Below, in pieces: positions 7,303-25,256 of a stretch of DNA of 34,343 bases. Numbering within the stretch: the stretch's first letter is position 1; each line of letters opens with the position of its first letter. Both the position numbers and the translations under genes were made by a program. The notes under the pieces were generated by a model. It did no database searches, was not told the origin of the DNA, and saw nothing but the letters and a program-made list of their open reading frames with translations. Source of the stretch: Candidatus Altarchaeota archaeon (GTDB lineage Archaea; Altiarchaeota; Altiarchaeia; IMC4; QMZM01); assembly GCA_016931955.1 (NCBI GenBank), contig JAFGDV010000040.1, forward strand, positions 1 to 34,343. Reading direction: 5' to 3'.

Positions 7303-7353
7303 TTCTTTTTTCTAAAAAGAAAGGCCGCATCACAGCCTTTTAGGAAAAGGCTG
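7303..7353. repeat. Two hairpins after mscS, including CAGCCTTTT/AAAAGGCTG
   Basis: TTCTTTTT (7303-7310) pairs with AAAAAGAA (7314-7321) and could end the mscS transcript. CAGCCTTTT (7333-7341) pairs with AAAAGGCTG (7345-7353). The second hairpin recurs almost exactly at 23196-23216, inside the disrupted gatE leader, with only the loop changed (AGG to AAG). This marks it as a dispersed palindromic repeat rather than a one-off terminator. Confidence 0.65.
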
Positions 7354-7356
7354 CCA

Positions 7357-7458
7357 GCAAGACCTATGGTCTTGTCTGAGTCGAAACCCGAAGGTCTCAC
7401 TCATTAGCAGGACGCAGCAGCATCCTGTCTGAGTCGATGCCGAAACCTCGCTCATCAA
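7357..7458. repeat. Imperfect tandem repeat, two units of about 50 bases
   Basis: Unit 1 (7357-7406) and unit 2 (7407-7458) both begin GCARGAC, carry TGTCTGAGTCGA in the middle, and end with CCGAA then CTC-CTCAT. Unit 1 also holds a 6-bp hairpin AAGACC/GGTCTT (7359-7373). The units lie between the 3' ends of two convergent genes and contain no plausible coding sequence. Function is unknown; a small structured RNA or part of a repeat element are both possible. Confidence 0.55.
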
Positions 7459-7461
7459 AGA

Positions 7462-7526
7462 GAATTTGCCGAAGGCAAATTCCTTTTCTTTTGGTGCAGC
7501 TTTTCTTTTAGAAAAAGAAAAGATGC
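7462..7526. repeat. Composite two-hairpin repeat element, copy A
   Basis: Hairpin 1 is GAATTTGCC (7462-7470) with GGCAAATTC (7474-7482). Then comes CTTTTCTTTTGGTGCAG, and hairpin 2 is CTTTTCTTTT (7500-7509) with AAAAGAAAAG (7513-7522), extended by GCA/TGC. The same order of a short hairpin, a CTTTCTTTTG spacer and an A/T-rich hairpin appears at 25129-25183 after gatE. It lies immediately downstream of the H-like gene on the minus strand and may also act as its terminator. Confidence 0.6.
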
Positions 7527-7536
7527 AAAGAAAGGG

Positions 7537-7971
7537 CTATTCGTAGATTCCAGCATATCTTTCTTTTTCTTTTAGGAAGATATTCTTGAAGTATTCTGCC
7601 GCAGACTTCACATCCATGAGATTATCTCTGCTGTCTTCAAGGATACTCGCTTCAAGAATCCATCCTTCGCCGTAGGGATCCTTGTTTATCAGTGAGGGAT
7701 CGTCCAGCAGTGTTTCGTTCACTTGGGAGACCATGCACTTGAATGGGGCGGATACCTCCGTCACAGATTTTATGGTCTCGAATGAAGCCATAGGCTCCAT
7801 GGCATTGAATTCTTCGCCGTTGTCTGGCAGATCCACGTGCACTATTTCTTTGGTGAGGGAGCTTCCTAATGAGGTTAAACCAATCCTGGCAGTCTTATCC
7901 TTTAACCCCACCCACACATGCCCTCTCATATATAAAAGATCATCCGGAAAATCAAAGCCCTCTACTCTCAT
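7537..7971 (-). CDS. Glycine cleavage H-like lipoyl acceptor protein
   Basis: Lipoyl-domain protein of the GcvH family (144 residues). The core reads YMRGHVWVGLKDKTARIGLTSL, then a segment ASFETIKSVTEVSAPF matching the H-protein lipoylation site ES(V/I)K-V--V-AP, with K68 as the expected lipoyl-lysine. The family shuttles aminomethyl groups between glycine cleavage subunits, but H-like proteins also carry lipoate in sulfur metabolism (LbpA). No P, T or L protein gene is in view. It is the last gene of the lipoate island and overlaps the preceding M23-like gene by 20 bases, so it is probably a substrate of the lipoylation enzymes encoded just upstream. Which pathway uses the lipoyl arm is unknown. 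Confidence 0.85.
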   Translation of the reverse strand: MRVEGFDFPDDLLYMRGHVWVGLKDKTARIGLTSLGSSLTKEIVHVDLPDNGEEFNAMEPMASFETIKSVTEVSAPFKCMVSQVNETLLDDPSLINKDPYGEGWILEASILEDSRDNLMDVKSAAEYFKNIFLKEKERYAGIYE

Positions 7972-8827
7972 CTTGATTACTTCCTAATGTTATCTTGACC
8001 CTCTCCCCCTCCTGCAGCTGCAGCTTCCCGTATTTCTCTGGGAGAAGTCTGACCAGATTTCGACCGAACATGAAGGAGATGCCTGCGAACCTTATGTTAT
8101 TAGCATACACTCCTGCACCATCTGTCTGGAAGACGCTCATGTAGCTTCCAACTCTGTTTATTTTACCTATTCTGATTTCATTAAAAAAAACCCCCTCCCC
8201 CGGATTGAATACTCCAAGAACACCGGCGTATCCTATGACTGTTGCACCGTCAACGAAGGTGTATATATCACCTACGCGAACGACGTTACCAAGATTCAAT
8301 GAAACCACGACGTTCCTCTCCGTTGTTCTCATGACAGTGCCCTCCAGCTCAGACACCTTCTTTTTCCCTGCTTCTTTCCTGAAGCAGGGCTCCAGCTCAA
8401 AGCCGCCTCTGGCGCGAACGTAATCCTGGAGGCTTCTGACTTCAAGGTGCAGGGCAGCATCAACCCAGAACGTGAAGTAGCCGTTCTTTATGAAACAACC
8501 TAATTCATCCCCTACATCAACTTTATCGCCTTCCCTGACTGATGGTTTTATGTGCATTATCTTGGCGACGTGGTTTCCTGCCCGGATCAACGTAAGGTAT
8601 TCTGGGAGGGATTCTCCACAGAGAGAGGGAGACTCGAATTCCATAGTCTCCAGGACAGTTCCATTGATGGGAGACAGCGCAGGGTCTCCGAAATCCCCTC
8701 CTTGGTATAAGTCCATCGCACGAAAATCGCTGTGAGCTGGAAAAGGGCTTCCCAGGAAGGTGTATTCCCAACCCCTCTCCGCATAGACTTCAACGTCTTT
8801 CGCTCTCGCTACCATATCCACTACCAT
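7952..8827 (-). CDS. Degenerate M23-like (duplicated hybrid motif) protein beside the H-like gene
   Basis: The first half resembles the lysostaphin/M23 peptidase fold: H32 and D39 in HSDFRAMDLY, DPALSPINGTVLE, then MHIKPSVREGDKVDVGDELG (residues 91-110) and ALHLEV (residues 125-130). H127 matches the second His of the family's HxH, but the first is Ala, and the H-D spacing is six residues rather than three, so peptidase activity is doubtful. No signal peptide is seen. The second half (about 155-291) is beta-rich and unrecognised. I start at the ATG at 8827 because an AAGGTG SD lies 6 bases upstream; the frame is open further up. It overlaps the genes on both sides, so its role is presumably tied to the lipoyl acceptor or the lipoate enzymes. 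Confidence 0.6.
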   Translation of the reverse strand: MVVDMVARAKDVEVYAERGWEYTFLGSPFPAHSDFRAMDLYQGGDFGDPALSPINGTVLETMEFESPSLCGESLPEYLTLIRAGNHVAKIMHIKPSVREGDKVDVGDELGCFIKNGYFTFWVDAALHLEVRSLQDYVRARGGFELEPCFRKEAGKKKVSELEGTVMRTTERNVVVSLNLGNVVRVGDIYTFVDGATVIGYAGVLGVFNPGEGVFFNEIRIGKINRVGSYMSVFQTDGAGVYANNIRFAGISFMFGRNLVRLLPEKYGKLQLQEGERVKITLGSNQDESRGL

Positions 8828-9753
8828 GAGCAACACCTTGACTCGTCTATTTCCTCTATTTCCAGACACAGTTCCTCAGCAGCCTCGTAAGCGCTCTTCG
8901 AAGGAACTGCTATCTTATTCACGCCGGACTTCACAGCCTCCCTATCCAATTCCAGACGATATCTGCCACCAGGACGCACACAGCTCAAGGAGATATTCTT
9001 TTCAGGATACATCAATCGGGCGATAGAGATTATCTTCGAAACATCTTCTATGGACGGGGGATCCACGTTCTCCATCTCTGTTCCCTCTGTTGGTATGAAT
9101 ACTACGATTACTATGTTGTCTGGGTCTATCTCCCTAAGCAGCTCTAATGCTTTAAGCTCTCCCCTGATCTTCCCATTATAAAGGCCCACGATTATGTGAG
9201 GGGATATGTTCTCTACCCCGAAATCCCTTAGATAATGCAGCGTTTTCTGATACTCTTCTGGGCCATAGTCTAGTCCCAATATCTCCTTTATGGTTTTCTT
9301 ATCTCCTATGACATCCGTAAGCGCGGCATCGATGAACCCCGAAACCTCATGAGCGTGTTTCTTATTCAATATGCCTGTGTGGGCGTTTATCTTTAACCCG
9401 GTTTCTCTTCTGATCTTCTTCAATGAGTCCTTGAATTCATATGTTGGAACCGAACCATCTCTCCGGCTGCCTCCGCTGACGACCAAACCCTTCACCTTAG
9501 ACCTCAACAACTCTAGGGCAAGTTTCTCCAATGATTCAGGAGAATCGACCTGGTGCATGTGCTCCAAGTAGTGAGTATTACAATGCTTGCATGAGAGTTC
9601 ACAACGTGTCTTAGTTATCGACACCGGATCGAATGGCCTCTTATAGAAGAGTATCTTGTTCCCCAGATTCTTGATTCTAGTATCAAAAGCAAGCTCCTGC
9701 AGTTTCTCCTTATCCTGTTTGAAGAAAACCTCTGCCTCCTGTAACGCAATCAT
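8821..9753 (-). CDS. Radical SAM protein, LipS1-like paralog 2
   Basis: Radical SAM enzyme (310 residues) with the [4Fe-4S] motif C51-x3-C55-x2-C58 (CELSCKHC), a GLVVSGG SAM-binding segment, and a C-terminal Cys pair C307-C308 (SRCCSW). It is clearly paralogous to the protein at 13962-14870: shared features include LNCKHC-type cluster spacing, AHTG, SPHI--GL--G, GTEMENV/GTQMEDV, and GVN-IAVP near the C-terminus. The family (COG1856-type, biotin synthase-like) includes LipS1, which with LipS2 inserts sulfur into octanoyl chains in Thermococcus. I use the ATG at 9753, seven bases after a GAGGTGG SD; a TTG six bases upstream sits too close to it. A TATA-like box at 9781-9791 suggests its own promoter. 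Confidence 0.82.
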   Translation of the reverse strand: MIALQEAEVFFKQDKEKLQELAFDTRIKNLGNKILFYKRPFDPVSITKTRCELSCKHCNTHYLEHMHQVDSPESLEKLALELLRSKVKGLVVSGGSRRDGSVPTYEFKDSLKKIRRETGLKINAHTGILNKKHAHEVSGFIDAALTDVIGDKKTIKEILGLDYGPEEYQKTLHYLRDFGVENISPHIIVGLYNGKIRGELKALELLREIDPDNIVIVVFIPTEGTEMENVDPPSIEDVSKIISIARLMYPEKNISLSCVRPGGRYRLELDREAVKSGVNKIAVPSKSAYEAAEELCLEIEEIDESRCCSW

Positions 9754-9780
9754 CTTCAATCCACCTCTACGGAATCAAAA

Positions 9781-9791
9781 CATTAATTAAG
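9781..9791 (-). promoter_or_regulatory. TATA-like box for the LipS1-like 2 / M23-like / H-like unit
   Basis: Read on the minus strand the tract is CTTAATTAATG, about 33 bases upstream of the ATG at 9753, which leaves a short leader holding the GAGGTGG SD. With a 65-base gap from the preceding gene, it suggests that the last three island genes can be transcribed separately. Confidence 0.4.
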
Positions 9792-9818
9792 ATTTTCTGC
9801 CCATGACTTAATAAACTT

Positions 9819-11060
9819 TTACTCCGATCTTGATTTATTCAAAGCAAGCCCTTTAATGGTTTCATAGTTCCCGAAATAGAGGCTATTATATGTCCCATAT
9901 CTGCCGTACGTGAGTTTTTTTGCCCCCGAACCCATGAAGCCACCATGCACAGGATAGACAAAGATCATCCCACTCTCCTCAAAGAATCCATCCATTTCCT
10001 CAAGAACTTCATTCTGCTCTGAGGTGCTCAGTCTCTGACTGAACACAGCTAAGGGCGTATCATCTTTACTACTCCAGTCAAGAAAAACGAAAACAGGAAA
10101 ATCTCCACCCATCTTTTCTCTCACCTTAACTATGAGATCGTCCCATTTTTCCCTGTCAAGTACTCTTCTTTCGATTTCTTTTCCTGAAGGAGTCGCAGTC
10201 GCAAAATCCAGATCAGGAGCGGCATGGGAAAACTCCGTAAATGTAACCCAGCTCCCCACATAGATGCGTTTCTGATACTTTGAGTAACCGTATTCGTGTA
10301 TTCTATCGACTAACCTGGATGCTGATTCCATCCATTCCCCCACAAAGGGGTGGTTGGGCTCTATTCTTCCGGCTCTCACCAGTATAGACGGCGGACCGAA
10401 GAATCCATCAATCCAAATAGCATCTGCTCCGCAGTCTATCTGTTTTTTCGCCCAATCCAAAAAAAGCTCCTGGACGTCTTCATTCGTCAGATCGGGATAG
10501 TATCCCTCAAACCTCTGTATCTCCATAAATTGCTCTATTTCTTCAGGGGAAACAGGCAGATCCCATTTAGAGGGATTAAATGCCATCGAATTAAGCTCCT
10601 CTCTGGTGAAGGGTCTGCCTGTTTTAGGATTCATCTCTCCTTCAGTGAGGCGTTGAGCAGGTATGGCGCCGCAAAAAATCACTTCAGGTTTTTCCTTCTT
10701 TATCTCAGTTATGGTTGTTTTAAGATCCTGGTAACTGTAACCATCCTTTGCGCCAGAATCTGGACAAGGCGCCCACTTCCAAAAACCCCTGAATATGAAA
10801 TCGGTGCGAGTCTCCCTAAGCTGAGCGGTAACCTCATCAACACTCCAACCAACAGCAACATAATCAGTCACCCTCTCATAGAGAGAGGCGACTTTGACCT
10901 GAGAAAGCTCTGTTTTTGGGGGTATCATTGTTGTAGTAGTCACTGCTGTAGTTGTTGTAGTCACCACCGTAGTTGTTGTCGACTTAGACCTGAACCTATG
11001 CAAACAACCAGTAAGCAAAACAATAACCAACACCCCTACAATCAAGATTTTCTTGTTCAT
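9819..11060 (-). CDS. Secreted lipoprotein with TIM-barrel glycosidase-like domain
   Basis: The N-terminus is a signal peptide with lipobox LTGC (C19), then a Thr-rich linker of about 25 residues (residues 27-46 are mostly Thr and Val), a pattern seen on archaeal cell-surface proteins. The remaining ~360 residues look like a (beta/alpha)8 glycoside-hydrolase-like barrel: FIFRGFWKWAP, KPEVIFCGAIPAQR, CGADAIWIDGFFG with a candidate acid D, KRIYVGSW, FPVFVFLDWSS. I cannot assign a family or substrate. Its start overlaps the LipS2-like stop by 4 bases (ATGA), so it is co-transcribed with lipoate genes despite being extracytoplasmic. That placement is odd and unexplained. Confidence 0.72.
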   Translation of the reverse strand: MNKKILIVGVLVIVLLTGCLHRFRSKSTTTTVVTTTTTAVTTTTMIPPKTELSQVKVASLYERVTDYVAVGWSVDEVTAQLRETRTDFIFRGFWKWAPCPDSGAKDGYSYQDLKTTITEIKKEKPEVIFCGAIPAQRLTEGEMNPKTGRPFTREELNSMAFNPSKWDLPVSPEEIEQFMEIQRFEGYYPDLTNEDVQELFLDWAKKQIDCGADAIWIDGFFGPPSILVRAGRIEPNHPFVGEWMESASRLVDRIHEYGYSKYQKRIYVGSWVTFTEFSHAAPDLDFATATPSGKEIERRVLDREKWDDLIVKVREKMGGDFPVFVFLDWSSKDDTPLAVFSQRLSTSEQNEVLEEMDGFFEESGMIFVYPVHGGFMGSGAKKLTYGRYGTYNSLYFGNYETIKGLALNKSRSE

Positions 11061-12037
11061 TTTTTCAGCTGCTCTTTCACTAGTTTGATTTCGTCTCTGG
11101 TGAGAGGTCTGGGAAAATTATAGATCACGCCACCAGGAGACTCAGTCGAATACGGACGATTACAGTCAGGGCAACCCCTCGTCAAAAAAGGCCTCCCAGA
11201 GGATATCGTCTCCTCTAAAACAGAATCCTCAACGCCGAAGTCAACTATCCTATCCTCACTGAACCGCATCCGGTCAAAGCGGGAGAGCCCAGACTCGATG
11301 AGATACGAAGCAAGCTGAATCCTCCTATAATGGCCGATCGACGGAACATCCCCTCGAAGCTGAGAAAAAGGAATAGGAGTGTAGGCGAATAATGCGGAGT
11401 ATATCCCTTTATCAGAAAGCGACTGGATAAGATGTACAGCATCCCTCTCCGTCTCCCCTAAGCCGAGAATAAGGTGGGTTCCAACATTACCTCTATTGAA
11501 GACCTCCAAGGCCTCATCCAAGGCCTTTATATGACCCCCCCAGGTGTAGGGACAGAAAGCTTGCATGCCCTTTATCCCATCGAAAATCGCTTCAGTTACG
11601 GCATCCAATGGGATCACAAGCCTATCTACACCCAAGGCCTTAAGCTCCTCAAAACTATTCTTAGGGAAGGGAAAAATAGAGACAGAGATCGGGATACTTG
11701 AACCCTCCCTTATTTCCTTAACCAGATACACTAGATCATCAAACATGCTCTGGTAGTTCATGGTCTGAATACACGCCCCCCTAAGAAGACCATGCTCGTA
11801 CGCCTTCATAAGCCGAGATACGATCTCCTGAGTATCTCTAGGAGGATACAGGCCGCGGGCTATATGCTCAGCATTCGCAGAAGAATCCCTGGCTTGAGCG
11901 CAGAATCTACAATTCGAAAGACACTTACCAGAGTGATAGGTCTGAAGATACGCCGTAGTTGGGTCTGCCTCAGTCGCTAATATCTCCAACCCCAGCACCC
12001 TCAAAGTGCCCATGGAAACCCTGACCTTCTCCCTCAT
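11057..12037 (-). CDS. Radical SAM protein, LipS2-like (biotin synthase-like)
   Basis: BioB-like radical SAM enzyme of 326 residues with cluster motif C39-x3-C43-x2-C46 (CLSNCRFCAQ) and a C-terminal CPDC motif (C289, C292) followed by RPYSTESPGG. The CRFCAQ core is biotin-synthase-like, but the context is lipoate rather than biotin. In Thermococcus kodakarensis two proteins once annotated as biotin synthases, LipS1 and LipS2, jointly form lipoyl groups; this gene matches the LipS2 type. It starts at an ATG overlapping the LplA stop (ATGA at 12034-12037) and ends in an ATGA overlap with the lipoprotein gene. Alternative: a radical SAM sulfurtransferase with another acyl substrate. Confidence 0.82.
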   Translation of the reverse strand: MREKVRVSMGTLRVLGLEILATEADPTTAYLQTYHSGKCLSNCRFCAQARDSSANAEHIARGLYPPRDTQEIVSRLMKAYEHGLLRGACIQTMNYQSMFDDLVYLVKEIREGSSIPISVSIFPFPKNSFEELKALGVDRLVIPLDAVTEAIFDGIKGMQAFCPYTWGGHIKALDEALEVFNRGNVGTHLILGLGETERDAVHLIQSLSDKGIYSALFAYTPIPFSQLRGDVPSIGHYRRIQLASYLIESGLSRFDRMRFSEDRIVDFGVEDSVLEETISSGRPFLTRGCPDCNRPYSTESPGGVIYNFPRPLTRDEIKLVKEQLKK

Positions 12038-12861
12038 CTTCCGCCCAAATCCTTAAGTTCAGGGCTCACCTCATATGAGCCGGTGGAGCGGGTTCTACCC
12101 CGAGTGTAACGGAAAATCCATTCCTCATCGTAGTACTTCGGCAGCAGCTTTTCTGCTAGCTTTTTCTCCTCCTTAGTCATATTGTCTTCCACCAAGCGGG
12201 TGTTGAAGGTCTTCTCGAAGCCGTATTTCAAAGACTCTTCCACATCGCTGAGTGGGACCTTTCGCCCAAGCTGCCTGTTAAGGTCCGTCAACCTCTCCTC
12301 AATCGACTTAATACCCTTATCAGAGATCTTCTCCAAGGGTATGTTACAGCAGAGAAGCATCTCCTTTATGTTGAAGTCCACCAGCAGGGTGCCATGCTGT
12401 AATAACACACGATTACCCCTGGTCTGAGCGGAACCTGAGATCTTCTTACCATTACATAAGACATCGTTTATGGGCTTGAATTCGCCCCGTAAACCATACT
12501 TCTCCAAGGCGTGGACAACTATGGAACACACCCTTTCATAGGATTCGGTAACATCTAGGGGGATCTCTCCGCTCTCCAAGCTGCCGATGAAGCCATACTG
12601 TACCTGAGAGCTCTCGGATGCGAACGCCATACCACCGCCAGAGATCCTCCTAGTGACATGATAATCCAATTCCCTGCAGCGTTCAAGATTCAACTCCCTC
12701 TCAATCAACTGAGAATAACCCATTATGATAGACTTCACCGGAGTCCAAAGAAATCCAATGCTATCCCCAGTACGGTCAGCTATCCGGAAAAGTGCCTCAT
12801 TCGCCGCCATAATCCTGTAGGGATCAATCAAACCAAAATTCATGAACCTTAATTCATCCAT
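12034..12861 (-). CDS. lplA: Lipoate--protein ligase A, N-terminal/catalytic domain (LplA1)
   Basis: Lipoyl/octanoyl-protein ligase catalytic subunit (275 residues). It activates the acid with ATP and transfers it to a lipoyl-domain lysine. RRISGGGMAF (residues 71-80) is the adenylate/lipoate loop, and NDVLCNGKKISGSAQ (132-146) contains the catalytic lysine K140. LLQHGTLLVDF follows, as in active ligases. A C-terminal helical region ends with LPKYYDEEWIFRY. The C-terminal accessory domain is encoded separately by the adjacent lplB, as in Thermoplasma. I use the ATG at 12861, six bases after an AGGTG SD; a GTG at 12870 is possible. It overlaps lplB by 8 bases and the LipS2-like gene by 4. Confidence 0.88.
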   Translation of the reverse strand: MDELRFMNFGLIDPYRIMAANEALFRIADRTGDSIGFLWTPVKSIIMGYSQLIERELNLERCRELDYHVTRRISGGGMAFASESSQVQYGFIGSLESGEIPLDVTESYERVCSIVVHALEKYGLRGEFKPINDVLCNGKKISGSAQTRGNRVLLQHGTLLVDFNIKEMLLCCNIPLEKISDKGIKSIEERLTDLNRQLGRKVPLSDVEESLKYGFEKTFNTRLVEDNMTKEEKKLAEKLLPKYYDEEWIFRYTRGRTRSTGSYEVSPELKDLGGR

Positions 12862-13156
12862 CTCGCTCACCTATCGCCTTCATTATCGCCTCGGTGAAGT
12901 CCTCAGGATAGGTCTTGGGGGACTGAAAGACGTTGTTATTGAAGAACGCCTTCAGCCGCTCAAGGACCTCCTCTCTCTTAGCCTTCACACCCATCAAGGC
13001 TTTTTCCATCTTATCTATGAAGTGCTCCGGCGTAAGGATGAAATCGCCCGAGATTATGATGTCCTCAATCCTACCGTCTTCAACCCTCACCAGTGCACGA
13101 ATCAAGCCGCTCCTCGCCTTATACAATCCCTCACGCATACCCTCCAGCGTATCCAT
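12854..13156 (-). CDS. lplB: Lipoate--protein ligase C-terminal domain protein LplB
   Basis: Small protein of about 100 residues matching the lipoate-protein ligase C-terminal domain: YKARSGLIRALVRVEDGRIEDIIISGDF, then a helical PEHFIDKMEKALMG segment. In archaea with split ligases, LplB is needed with LplA for lipoate activation. The start is uncertain. The ATG at 13156 begins just before the conserved domain and 14 bases after the upstream stop but has no SD. An in-frame GTG at 13201 overlapping the upstream gene would add 15 residues. It lies between two LplA-like genes, so it could serve either. Confidence 0.85.
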   Translation of the reverse strand: MDTLEGMREGLYKARSGLIRALVRVEDGRIEDIIISGDFILTPEHFIDKMEKALMGVKAKREEVLERLKAFFNNNVFQSPKTYPEDFTEAIMKAIGERDG

Positions 13157-13170
13157 AACTAAAATTACGT

Positions 13171-13965
13171 TTAGGTTCTTAAATTCCGTTTCCTCCTCCA
13201 CTCCCTCAGATCAGCACGGAAAATCCATTCATCAGTCAAGTATTTATTTCTAAGATTCTCTGCCAGCTCCAACTCATGGTCAGTCAATGCACCCTCATAA
13301 GCTTCACCCAGGATGTGTTCAAAGCCACCGAGTAAGGCCTTCTTGACCTCATCCATCGTGATACCCTCAACCTCCCTTCTCAGACAAGTCATGCCCTCCT
13401 CGGGTTTCCTTATCCCCTCCCTAAGATTCTTGACTGGGTTCTTGAGGAGAAAACACATGGTCTTGAAGTCGAAATCAACGAGTAAACTGCCCGAGGAGTT
13501 GACCACGCCCTTCGAAGTCAGCTGCCCGCTGCCTGAGATCTTTCTTCCGTTAGCGTAGACGCTGAACCTTTCATCATCAATAACGGCGTCGCCTACGCCA
13601 AGGGAATTCAAGGCGGCTATCACTCCGTTCAAGATAAACCTGTAGACCTCTCTGGGACCATAGGGCATTCCATCCCGATCCTCCCGGAAGATTACATTAT
13701 ATATAATCTGGTTTTCATCGCAGAAGCCTGTTCCCCCGCCGAGAACCCTCCTGACTATTGGAATCTCCATACGCTTACAGCGATCAACGTGGAGGTCTTC
13801 ATATGCTTTCTGGTGGTAGCCGATGTAGACTGCAGGCTTAATAGGACGCCAGAAGAGGAGGGTATCGTCCACGAGATCCTGTCTTATGGAATCCATCACA
13901 GCCTCAAAAATCGCTGGACCAAGAACACCATCCACCTTATCCAAGCCGATGAAACGCCACTTCAT
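13171..13965 (-). CDS. Divergent LplA-like acyltransferase/ligase (LplA2)
   Basis: Second LplA/LipB-fold protein (264 residues). It has the general architecture: PAVYIGYHQ, VRRVLGGGTGF (residues 71-81), and VYANGRKISGSGQ with lysine K142 where the ligase catalytic lysine lies. Two family positions differ from its neighbour: Ser of RR-SGGG is Leu, and His of the HGTLL segment is Ser (VNSSGSLLVDF). It may be an octanoyltransferase, a ligase of altered specificity, or a partner subunit. Both LplA-like proteins end with a D/E-EWIFR motif. The start at 13965 overlaps the LipS1-like stop by 4 bases (ATGA). Confidence 0.78.
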   Translation of the reverse strand: MKWRFIGLDKVDGVLGPAIFEAVMDSIRQDLVDDTLLFWRPIKPAVYIGYHQKAYEDLHVDRCKRMEIPIVRRVLGGGTGFCDENQIIYNVIFREDRDGMPYGPREVYRFILNGVIAALNSLGVGDAVIDDERFSVYANGRKISGSGQLTSKGVVNSSGSLLVDFDFKTMCFLLKNPVKNLREGIRKPEEGMTCLRREVEGITMDEVKKALLGGFEHILGEAYEGALTDHELELAENLRNKYLTDEWIFRADLREWRRKRNLRT

Positions 13966-14870
13966 TGTAATTGCTCTGGGAGTAACGCACAACATGCGTG
14001 GAACTCCCTGACCCCCAGACCAAATTTCTCCGCCTCCATGTACGCTGTAGGAGTTGGAACGGCGATGCTGTTGACGCCCGCCCGTACAGCAAGCCTGTCT
14101 ATTTCAGCCCTTACATCGCCTTTTCCACGAGCACAGCCCAAAGACACAAAGGATTCTGGGAATCTCAGCCTGGCCTTGCATAAGACTTCAACAACATCTA
14201 TGGCATTAATCCTCACATCCTCCATCTGAGTTCCAATTATGTTAGTCAAACCAATCACGACAATGTTTGAAGGTTTTATCGAAGAGATTATGTCAAGGGC
14301 AGAATACTCATGGAAGAGCCTGCCATGATGCAAGCCAACACAGATATGTGGGGCAATATTTTTTACCCCAGCCCTCTGAAGCGCCTTAAGAGTCCGCCTG
14401 TAGTCTTCAGGATAGAGCTCTATTCCATAGATCTCCTTCGTGGTTTCCTCCGAGCCGACGACGTCGACGCAGACACCATCCAAGCCAGAGTCCTTCAGAT
14501 CCCTAGCTTCCCTGCGGTTAATAACCCCCGTATGGGCGATAACCAGCATGCCAGTCTCATCCTTGATCCTGCGGACAGCATCCAAGAATGGGCTGAGAGG
14601 GACCTTGCCTTCCGGAGTGCATCCTCCAGTCAAGAGGACGCCGGTTGAGCCGTTTCTGTGGAATCTAACACACAGATTCACGAGCTCCTTAGGCGTCAAC
14701 GCAGGAGTGAGCCGCTCAATAAGCCTCCTCCCACAATGTTTACAATTCAGGGCACATGATGAGCTAGTGACGGAGACTGCTGGAAAAAAATCCGATGTAT
14801 AGTAGAAATTAATCCCCCTCCCAAAGTTTTTGTATGAGAGTTCCCTGGATTCCTCAATCAACGCATCCAT
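13962..14870 (-). CDS. Radical SAM protein, LipS1-like paralog 1
   Basis: Radical SAM protein (302 residues) with C39-x3-C43-x2-C46 (CALNCKHC), GVLLTGG, IAHTG, IAPHICVGLHHG and a C-terminal C293-C294 pair (HACCAL). In LipS1-type enzymes extra cysteines hold a second, auxiliary cluster that probably donates sulfur; the CC pair may contribute, which is inference. It is the first gene of the lipoate island and overlaps the LplA2 gene by 4 bases. I start at the ATG at 14870; a TTG at 14876 is also in frame. No SD is evident, and an A/T-rich tract upstream (about 14886-14899) suggests a near-leaderless transcript. Its paralog lies at 8821-9753. Confidence 0.83.
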   Translation of the reverse strand: MDALIEESRELSYKNFGRGINFYYTSDFFPAVSVTSSSCALNCKHCGRRLIERLTPALTPKELVNLCVRFHRNGSTGVLLTGGCTPEGKVPLSPFLDAVRRIKDETGMLVIAHTGVINRREARDLKDSGLDGVCVDVVGSEETTKEIYGIELYPEDYRRTLKALQRAGVKNIAPHICVGLHHGRLFHEYSALDIISSIKPSNIVVIGLTNIIGTQMEDVRINAIDVVEVLCKARLRFPESFVSLGCARGKGDVRAEIDRLAVRAGVNSIAVPTPTAYMEAEKFGLGVREFHACCALLPEQLQ

Positions 14871-14910
14871 CAGCAAATAATAAAGGGATTAAAAGAAAAA
14901 AGAGGGACTA

Positions 14911-23056: not shown

Positions 23057-23138
23057 AGACACAAGCATTAAATAACCGCCCACACCCCCCACAACAAAGA
23101 CAATAATAAACCCTCACACGTAAATATAATATCCAAAG

Positions 23139-23237
23139 ATGACTGAACTGGATTATCAAAAACTGGGCTTCAAGTGTGGTATAGGAATCCATGCACAGCC
23201 TTTTAAGAAAAGGCTGGCGAAAAAGGATGCTGTCTGA
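23139..23237 (+). pseudogene. 5' remnant of a second gatE copy, cut off by a hairpin element
   Basis: The ATG at 23139 opens MTELDYQKLGFKCGIGIHAQ, homologous to the true gatE start MTDINYKTLGFKCGIEIHQQ at 23257 (13 of 20 residues the same, clearly different DNA). Homology stops after about 20 codons where the CAGCCTTTT hairpin begins. The frame reads through the hairpin and ends at TGA 23235-23237 after 32 codons. It therefore looks like the beginning of a diverged resident gatE interrupted by an insertion. Confidence 0.75.
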
Positions 23238-23247
23238 CGACAGCATC
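23196..23247. repeat. Twin-hairpin insert between gatE remnant and intact gatE
   Basis: CAGCCTTTT (23196-23204) pairs with AAAAGGCTG (23208-23216). GATGCTGTC (23226-23234) pairs with GACAGCATC (23239-23247). The first hairpin is nearly identical to 7333-7353. Together they fill the space between the 5' gatE remnant and the intact gatE ATG at 23257. Confidence 0.7.
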
Positions 23248-23256
23248 AGACAAAAG

Positions 23257-25119
23257 ATGACAGACATCAACTATAAAACATTGGGTTTCAAGTGCGGTAT
23301 CGAGATCCATCAGCAGTTGGAGACGCATAAGTTGTTCTGCGAGTGCCCTTCCATCATAAGAGAGGACGAACCCGACATCGTCGTCAGGAGAAAGATGAGG
23401 GCTGTCGCCGGAGAGATCGGAAACGTTGATCCTGCGGCGTTGTATGAATACCTCAGAGACAAGGAGATGATCTATCAAGCATACAGGGATACGACCTGTC
23501 TCGTGGAATTAGACGAAGAACCACCTCATCCGCTGAACGAGGAAGCCTTAGACACGGTCCTAGAGGCCTCGCTGCTCTTGAACGCGAAACCAGTGGATGA
23601 ACTGCAGGTCATGAGGAAGACAGTAATAGACGGCTCAAACACCTCAGGCTTCCAGAGGACCATTCTCGTGGCAATGGACGGCCACCTAGAAACAGAAGAA
23701 GGCAGAGTGAGAATACCGACCATCTGCCTCGAAGAAGACGCCGCAAGAAAAATAGGCGAAGAAAAGGATACGACAGTGTATAGGCTGGACAGACTCAGCA
23801 TACCTTTGATAGAGATAGCCACGACGCCAGACATAAAAAATCCAGGACATGCGAGAGAGGTTGCGGAAAAACTGGGGATGATACTGAGGGCGACAGGTAA
23901 GGTGAGAAGGGGATTAGGGACGATAAGGCAGGACCTGAACGTCTCCATAAGAGAGGGGGAGAGAGTAGAGATCAAAGGCGTACAGGATCTGCGTTTAATA
24001 GAAGACGTCCTCAGAAAAGAAGTGGAGAGACAGCTTATGCTGGTCGAGGTCAAGAAGGAACTGAAAAAAAGAGGGGCTAAAGCAGAAGACTTAGACTATG
24101 GGTTCGTTGACGTGACCCCTCTGTTCAAGAACACGAAGTCGACGATTGTCGCGAAAATGCTGGAGAAAGGCGCCAAGGTTATGGCTGTGAGACTGACGGG
24201 CTTCAAGGGATTGCTTAAGGGCAGGCTTGGACCTGAGCTGGCGCAGTACGCTAAAGCAGGTTCAGGTGTTAAGGGTATATTCCACTCAGACGAGCTCCCA
24301 GACTACGGCATAACTGAGGAGGAGGTTAAGGCCGTCGAGGATCGGCTGAAGATTAAAGATTATAAAGCGTTCGCTTTAGTAGTCGAAGAAAAGGAAACAG
24401 CAGAGAAGGCATTAGCTGAAGTGGTCAACAGATGCAAGACGGCGATAGATGGTGTCCCAGAGGAGACCCGGAAGGCTAAACCGGATGCGACAACAGAGTT
24501 CATGCGCCCACTTCCAGGATCGGCGAGGATGTATCCGGAGACAGACGAAGCACTTCTGGTTATCACCGAGGGGAGAATTGAGAGGATAAAGAGGGATATC
24601 CCTGAACTGCCAGAGGAACGGCTTGAGAGATACTTGAAGAAGGGCCTCAACCAAGAATTAGCTAATCAACTAATCAAGAGTCGTTCATCTGAGACCTTCG
24701 ACGAATTATCAGAGAAGTTCCCAGAGATTAAGGCCTCTACAATAGCGAATACCATACTTTCAATGCCGAAGGAGGTCAGGAAGAGATACAACGTGGACAC
24801 CAGTTCCCTGAGGAAAGAACACTATGAAGGGATCTTCAAGGAGATCATGGGAGGACGAACTACTAAGGAGTTCATACCTGACATTATGGCAGCCCTAGCA
24901 GCTGATCCGGAGAAATCTGTGGAAAAGGTCATCGAAGAAAAAGGCCTGCAGTCTATGACGGAGGAAGGAGTAGAGGAACTAGTAGGTAGGCTGATTTCGG
25001 AGAACAAGGGCATGACCTTCGGCGCCTTGATGGGTAAGACTATGGCAGAACTGAAAGGAAGGGCTGACGCAGAAGCCGTGAAAGAAATCATACACAGAAA
25101 ACTGCAAGCTAAAGGATAA
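23257..25119 (+). CDS. gatE: Glutamyl-tRNA(Gln) amidotransferase subunit E
   Basis: Kinase/tRNA-binding subunit of the archaeal GatDE amidotransferase, which converts misacylated Glu-tRNA-Gln to Gln-tRNA-Gln; the GatD amidase is not in the window. The N-terminus GFKCGIEIHQQLETHKLFCEC starts the GatB/E catalytic domain. Further motifs are DGSNTSGFQRT, IEIATTPDI and IRQDLNVSI; then comes the GatE-specific inserted domain (about residues 280-410) and a helical/YqeY-like C-terminal domain. Length is 620 residues, complete for the family. I use the ATG at 23257 because family similarity begins there; the frame runs upstream through a hairpin. The gene is flanked by pieces of another gatE on both sides. 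Confidence 0.95.
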   Translation: MTDINYKTLGFKCGIEIHQQLETHKLFCECPSIIREDEPDIVVRRKMRAVAGEIGNVDPAALYEYLRDKEMIYQAYRDTTCLVELDEEPPHPLNEEALDTVLEASLLLNAKPVDELQVMRKTVIDGSNTSGFQRTILVAMDGHLETEEGRVRIPTICLEEDAARKIGEEKDTTVYRLDRLSIPLIEIATTPDIKNPGHAREVAEKLGMILRATGKVRRGLGTIRQDLNVSIREGERVEIKGVQDLRLIEDVLRKEVERQLMLVEVKKELKKRGAKAEDLDYGFVDVTPLFKNTKSTIVAKMLEKGAKVMAVRLTGFKGLLKGRLGPELAQYAKAGSGVKGIFHSDELPDYGITEEEVKAVEDRLKIKDYKAFALVVEEKETAEKALAEVVNRCKTAIDGVPEETRKAKPDATTEFMRPLPGSARMYPETDEALLVITEGRIERIKRDIPELPEERLERYLKKGLNQELANQLIKSRSSETFDELSEKFPEIKASTIANTILSMPKEVRKRYNVDTSSLRKEHYEGIFKEIMGGRTTKEFIPDIMAALAADPEKSVEKVIEEKGLQSMTEEGVEELVGRLISENKGMTFGALMGKTMAELKGRADAEAVKEIIHRKLQAKG

Positions 25120-25128
25120 CGTCAAACA

Positions 25129-25183
25129 GAAAACCCAAAGGTTTCCTTTCTTTTGATCAACCTTTTCTTTAAGAAAGAAAAGG
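25129..25183. repeat. Composite two-hairpin repeat element, copy B
   Basis: GAAAACC (25129-25135) pairs with GGTTTC (25140-25145). A CTTTCTTTTGATCAA spacer follows, then CCTTTTCTTT (25161-25170) with AAAGAAAAGG (25174-25183). The layout and much of the sequence match copy A at 7462-7526. It separates the gatE stop from the 3' gatE remnant. Confidence 0.65.
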
Positions 25184-25190
25184 CTGGACG

Positions 25191-25256
25191 GAACTGAAAG
25201 GAAGGGCTGACGCAGAAGCCGTGAAAGAAATCATACAACAGAAGCTGGGAAAGTGA
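25191..25256 (+). pseudogene. 3' remnant of a second gatE copy
   Basis: 25191-25237 repeats 25048-25094 of the intact gatE exactly (47 bases). Then the two diverge but stay in frame: the remnant ends IIQQKLGK-stop (TGA 25254-25256), where the intact gene ends IIHRKLQAKG-stop. No start codon or upstream gatE sequence precedes it; the hairpin element does. Together with the 5' remnant it outlines a former or alternative gatE whose middle is missing. Confidence 0.75.

Follow-up and report, generated by a model that had tools for sequence, protein, structure and literature searches.

Hairpin elements beside displaced and restored gene ends at gatE, tRNA genes and other protein genes of an archaeal phylum

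The gatE locus of the window

The window analysed here, the whole stretch of 34,343 nt, is one entire contig of G000, an archaeal genome of 1.55 Mb assembled in 46 contigs. It carries a complete gatE, assigned to the archaeal GatE equivalog by the NCBIfam models NF003107 and TIGR00134 (both far above cut-off), and this gene is bracketed by copies of its own two ends, each separated from it by a short hairpin element (Table 1). The parts of gatE, the end copies and the hairpins had been described in an original prediction made from the letters of the DNA, and every one was recovered at the same position, base for base; palindromes had been proposed at both junctions, and both spacers do contain hairpins, with DNA folds much more stable than those of shuffled sequence (z = -7.7 for the 5' spacer, z = -3.5 for the 3' spacer). 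The full homology of the 5' copy covers 23135-23192 (58 nt, 76% identity to 23253-23310). Local alignment scores of the end copies are 46 (5') and 98 (3') against a maximum of 30 among 1500 random pairs of window flanks, so that a chance origin of the duplications is excluded.

A further hairpin cluster lies elsewhere in the window; a displaced gene end was looked for at this cluster and none was detected. Just beyond it (7537-14876, minus strand) is a group made up of two lipoate-ligase-like ORFs, one gcvH-like ORF and several radical-SAM-like ORFs, which, judged from their translations only, perhaps represents an archaeal lipoate assembly cluster.

Table 1. Features of the gatE locus, and a second hairpin cluster, in window positions
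Feature	Position	Strand	Remarks
Further hairpin cluster, same family	7303..7527	.	where mscS and gcvH-like genes converge
Displaced 5' end of gatE	23139..23192	+	18 codons, MTELDYQKLGFKCGIGIH; break after IEIH(QQ) codons; break point common to G006, G018 and G020
Upstream ORF, 32 codons	23139..23237	+	displaced gatE end running into the element; stop 19 nt before the gatE ATG (translation)
5' hairpin element	23193..23256	+	64 nt; hairpins 23196-23216 and 23226-23247, both perfect
Motif CAGCCTTTTNNNAAAAGGCTGGCGAAAA in 5' hairpin element	23196-23223	+	dispersed in the phylum; reversed-pattern control 0
Complete gatE	23257..25119	+	620 aa; resident body, first ~54 nt a diverged 5' end
47-nt block in restored gatE 3' end	25048..25094	+	identical in displaced 3' end; last 8 codons differ
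3' hairpin element	25120..25190	+	71 nt; main hairpin 25161-25183
Displaced native gatE 3' end	25191..25256	+	66 nt, ...EIIQQKLGK*; following spacer homologous to G001 gatE-rpS6e spacer

Recurrence at gatE, tRNA genes and other protein genes

The start of gatE was compared across the 19 genomes of the order with a testable gatE, and the succession of displaced 5' end, hairpin element and intact gatE was found in four of them (G000, G006, G018 and G020), which belong to two families. The break lies at identical codons (IEIHQQ) in all four and the element there measures 60-100 bp. The motif CAGCCTTTTNNNAAAAGGCTGGCGAAAA is present at the junction in G000, G006 and G018 (with a longer stem in G018) and G020 has a related, varied hairpin (CAACCTTTTAACAAAAGCTTG); past the first ~28 nt the elements of the different genomes diverge. 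The 3' event was found in G000 only, the other three genomes having the 5' event alone. A search of relatives for an uninterrupted gatE, which the original prediction had called for, found one in the same-genus genome G001, where the downstream gene is the same, so the element at gatE is present in some relatives and absent in others. From the displaced gatE start the reading frame continues into the element and reaches its stop 19 (G000), 18 (G006), 0 (G018) or 1 nt (G020) before the gatE ATG, and in G006 the start codon of the remnant is changed to ACG. From its position, and provided that the locus is still transcribed from the native promoter, the remnant could possibly act as an upstream ORF to which gatE is coupled.

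A search for other genes bracketed by the same hairpins had been suggested as a check, and such genes proved to be tRNA genes and several protein genes. Each of the 96 tRNA genes of five genomes was tested for a copy of its 5' or 3' end beyond an element; the wrong side of the gene served as control, cross-locus comparison being contaminated by orthologous tRNAs. Own-end copies were present at 13/20 genes in G000, 8/22 in G002, 2/20 in G006, 1/24 in G001 and 1/10 in G004, with 1/192 in the control. The 5' copies (12-33 nt) end in or just past the D arm and the 3' copies (mostly ~20 nt) start in the T loop, the inserts measuring 61-377 nt. Homology mostly ends at the mature tRNA end or within a few nucleotides of it; an exception is found in G024 (L200), where the duplication extends 6 nt beyond the tRNA end and in this resembles a target-site duplication. 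In G000, 16 of the 20 tRNA genes have a perfect 9-bp hairpin no more than 150 nt away, compared with 2.3% of random 150-nt pieces. In this genome six tRNA genes have a 5' event and eight a 3' event; one has both (~2.4 expected if the events are independent), and tRNA genes bracketed on both sides are few overall (G000:C30, G002:C82 and G004:C54). The split tRNA layout is assembled in six genomes, including the single-contig G015.

Several single tRNA loci have features of their own. At L057 (G000:C9:19072-19588) three elements are stacked behind one tRNA gene with copies of its 3' end between them, as if the intact end had been struck repeatedly. At L076 (G000:C31:19173-19317) a tRNA-Asn(GTT) gene has an intron-like insert after the anticodon that holds a CAGCCTTTT...GGCGAAAA hairpin, and a further hairpin cluster, upstream of it, includes 11 nt copied from the tRNA-Asn start. 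In G024 (L200, L194) a 3'-end fragment of tRNA-Gly together with a hairpin lies inside another tRNA locus, with a 21-nt duplication, and an intact tRNA-Gly with the same hairpin is found elsewhere in the genome; the joining of this fragment to a hairpin at a foreign locus suggests that gene-end fragments travel with the element.

Among protein genes other than gatE, split ends were found in G000 at the start of hisA and at the ends of prf1 (aRF-1), a TIGR00284 gene and a trpY-family gene, and elsewhere at the ends of moaB (G008) and purP (G021). At the displaced gene end it is the hairpin end of the element that adjoins the inner, cut side, and the element's opposite end is situated outside the restored gene; this polarity is constant across the protein-gene cases and the tRNA-Ile of G015. 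A 13-nt sequence from the stop region of the trpY-family gene in G000 (GTAGTGCCTAACT) recurs near hairpins in G002 (L202, L102) and G000 (L078).

The hairpins form a dispersed family. Of 29 genomes of the phylum, 9, from four families, contain the 28-nt sequence CAGCCTTTTNNNAAAAGGCTGGCGAAAA with up to three mismatches (control matches 0), and the pattern CARCCTTTTNNNAAAAGGYTG occurs 22 times in G000 (reversed control 0). The phenomenon is phylum-wide, and the window shows one instance of it. With two whole clusters as queries, BLAST detected ~30 multi-hairpin clusters in G000, many of them at contig ends, the points at which assemblies break on repeats. The element count for G000 is a lower bound, and covers the stretches around hairpins and tRNA genes that were read. 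Remnants were sought by self-comparison of loci, a plain test of left flank against right flank missing those that lie inside clusters. At L064 (G000:C17:37750-38060) repeated ATGATGACTGATGGGCGAGCTGACT-like stretches that resemble C/D box sRNA sequence adjoin a hairpin cluster and, on this likeness, are perhaps another RNA gene struck by elements. Viral contigs (IMG/VR) searched with two hairpin motifs gave no exact matches, and a viral source of the elements was rejected on this basis.

Movement without a transposase had been suggested for gatE, and none is visible there. No integrase gene lies inside the elements (at gatE the inserts measure 64 and 71 bp in the window and have a similar size at the other gatE loci), and no circular or excised form was seen. 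Among genomes whose assemblies are incomplete, PF00589 (tyrosine integrase) was found once in G000 and twice in G018 and was absent from G002, G006 and G020; PF01867 (Cas1) was absent from all five of these affected genomes; and PF01797 (Y1_Tnp), present in 5/24 genomes, was absent from G000, G002, G018 and G020. None of the three being consistently present in these assemblies, Cas1 and Y1 transposase were rejected as the common agent, and tyrosine integrase is probably not that agent either. The sole tyrosine integrase gene found in G000 (G000:C38:51049-52180) lies ~600 bp from a tRNA gene and, from this setting, may belong to an ordinary integrative element.

Origin of the ends and explanations of the arrangement

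Five protein-gene ends (91 codons) differ enough between displaced and restored copy for pN/pS to be estimated, although synonymous divergence is near saturation. Most differences between the copies are synonymous (pooled pN/pS 0.16, bootstrap 95% 0.09-0.26), whereas a functionless local duplicate in decay is expected to give ~0.5 or more; by the time they came together, the copies had therefore already diverged as functional genes of separate lineages, in keeping with the earlier suggestion that remnant and intact gene come from different lineages. In the young cases the block beside the hairpin is exact while the distal part differs: this block is 47 nt at the gatE 3' end of G000, 40 nt at gatE of G006, 49 nt at gatE of G018, ~38 nt at moaB and ~29 nt at purP, where identity falls to 65% over the distal 75 nt in spite of the exact junction block. 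Older, diverged cases are without such a block. At the gatE 5' end of G000 the remnant and restored copies (42 nt) are about equally distant from all orthologues; the diverged remnants of G000 and G020 resemble one another most (35/42), a likeness that may be due to chance. Comparison over 42-54 nt pointed to no donor lineage for the restored gatE end. Of the two copies of the 3' end the displaced one is native, because the spacer that follows it aligns with the gatE-rpS6e spacer of G001 (score 61, shuffled maximum 24) and the 3' element does not (score 12).

The body of gatE is resident. It clusters with G001 in the tree (support 100/99), its identity to G001 (68%) is that of rpS6e (68%) and falls within the range of the other neighbours (53-82%), and its GC and GC3 are typical of the contig. 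This contradicts the original prediction that a whole gatE allele had replaced the middle of a resident gatE. The idea of a joint replacement of both ends fared no better, three genomes having the 5' event alone and the 5' and 3' events at tRNA genes being unassociated; since the two kinds of event are independent, the bracketing of gatE in the window is best read as two insertions.

The most likely account, to which we give a probability of about one half, is an integrase-like movement of hairpin elements that brings a gene end along. Very small elements (~50-400 bp) built of hairpin modules would integrate just inside gene ends with a fixed polarity, their hairpin end becoming joined to the cut inner face of the resident gene end. 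At its opposite end the element would abut a copy of the gene end that stems from a diverged relative of the gene and completes the latter again, and the displaced resident end would remain on the element's far side; the exact block beside the junction would be the site of exchange, and gatE of G000 would have been struck twice, once per end. On this account the gene end would be carried by the element itself, the hairpin end would be acted on by an enzyme provided in trans, and the inserted DNA would be a neutral passenger. Against an integrase stand the pairing of a single hairpin motif with many unrelated gene cores, which would be unusual for one integrase, the lack of a consistently present recombinase and inserts of only tens to a few hundred bases. 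A broader proposal, which we hold tentatively and which may well be wrong, is that the elements represent an enzyme-poor class of mobile DNA in which the hairpin is the joining site: an unrecognised recombinase would target folded or conserved ends (tRNA D and T arms, termini), carry ends between species and so rewrite the termini of tRNA and essential genes phylum-wide.

Much of the same evidence would also fit a spread of insertion alleles by ordinary homologous recombination, a special enzyme being needed at the first event only. Crossovers within the duplicated gene end would leave an identical block beside the hairpin and a foreign far end, as in the young cases, and the diverged but functional copies, the gatE site shared by two families and the recurrence of an identical hairpin motif across several of the phylum's families would follow as well; however, the gatE-site elements of different genomes differ past their first ~28 nt, and for each of the many genes a mechanism of initial insertion would still be required, so that we consider this explanation somewhat improbable. 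A transposase that duplicates a long target site of 15-50 nt, with only those insertions surviving that leave a whole gene, would account for the exact duplications of 15-49 nt, for the same element types lying beside many tRNA genes each with its own duplicated end, for the stacked elements at a single tRNA and for the G024 duplication that runs past the tRNA end. A blind duplication would not, however, be expected to stop at or near the gene end, as the homology mostly does; the low pN/pS of the diverged pairs is far from the value for neutral decay, and the diverged far part of purP beside its exact junction block strains the idea further. We judge such transposition unlikely.

The order of the parts in the window, and the few tRNA genes bracketed on both sides, are what would be seen if a single mobile cassette (hairpin, gatE, hairpin) had replaced the middle of a resident gatE, but tree, identity and composition all show the gatE body to be resident, the 5' event stands alone at three other gatE loci, and in G000 tRNA genes with both ends affected are, if anything, fewer than independence predicts; a cassette of this kind is very improbable. 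An assembly chimera of two strain variants, the alternative that came with the original prediction, might be entertained for a genome in 46 contigs, but the same gatE codons are broken in G006, G018 and G020, which argues against it, and the layout recurs at the tRNA genes of six genomes, one of them in a single contig; recurrence in independent genomes excludes it for practical purposes.

Comparison with known systems

REP/BIME sequences and IS200/IS605-type transposition resemble the elements described here in being palindromic and dispersed with a hairpin at the element end, but the Y1 transposase of IS200/IS605 and REP/RAYT systems is absent from G000, G002, G018 and G020, and no REP/BIME or IS200/IS605-type insertion is known to restore a gene end. 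The double-hairpin elements of fungal mitochondrial DNA are likewise tiny, made only of hairpins and thought to be mobile, some being identical between species, but they are mostly intergenic or in rRNA genes, and in the parts of the account available to us a systematic split-and-restore of gene ends is not described (PMC10085805). The gatE 5' element has two hairpins and varies in presence between relatives, and might conceivably be of this kind. Casposons insert at tRNA 3' ends and at the translation gene aEF-2 with a target-site duplication (PMC4046053), and share the location at tRNA ends with our elements, but they are large, encode Cas1 and PolB and leave the sequence of the target gene unaltered, whereas the elements here break inside genes.

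The tRNA-gene islands (Islander type, and those of SSV-, pT26-2- and pTN3-type integrases) are alike in splitting the target, restoring its end and displacing a fragment, with cuts in the D and T arms (PMC8371274, PMC4383910). What an integrative island leaves behind is a target made whole and a fragment moved aside (PMC4383910); the 5' halves of tRNA genes serve as targets of pTN3-type archaeal integrases, and cutting at the D and T loops is known or proposed for archaeal integrases (PMC8371274). The hairpin elements have the same hallmarks: the target is regenerated, a fragment is displaced and, in five young protein-gene cases, the junctions share an identical core. They differ from the islands in consisting of ~50-400 bp of hairpins without an integrase gene, and in that they strike the majority of tRNA genes and several protein genes with one hairpin motif. 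Split-and-restore elements known so far are kilobases long and carry their own integrase, and island searches drop anything shorter than 2 kb (the Islander search rejected such candidates). If hairpin elements of 50-400 bp do likewise, a whole layer of gene-end exchange has been overlooked; this would explain the displaced tRNA fragments, the palindromes beside tRNA genes and the mosaic gene termini of this archaeal group, and would make essential genes such as gatE and prf1 targets of end swapping between lineages. The search design used here (a gene's own end beyond a hairpin, with the wrong side as control) is applicable to any genome. Among protein genes, SXT in prfC and e14 in icd, although large, autonomous and integrase-bearing, unlike the hairpin elements here, also integrate inside the end of a gene and supply it with a diverged replacement end.
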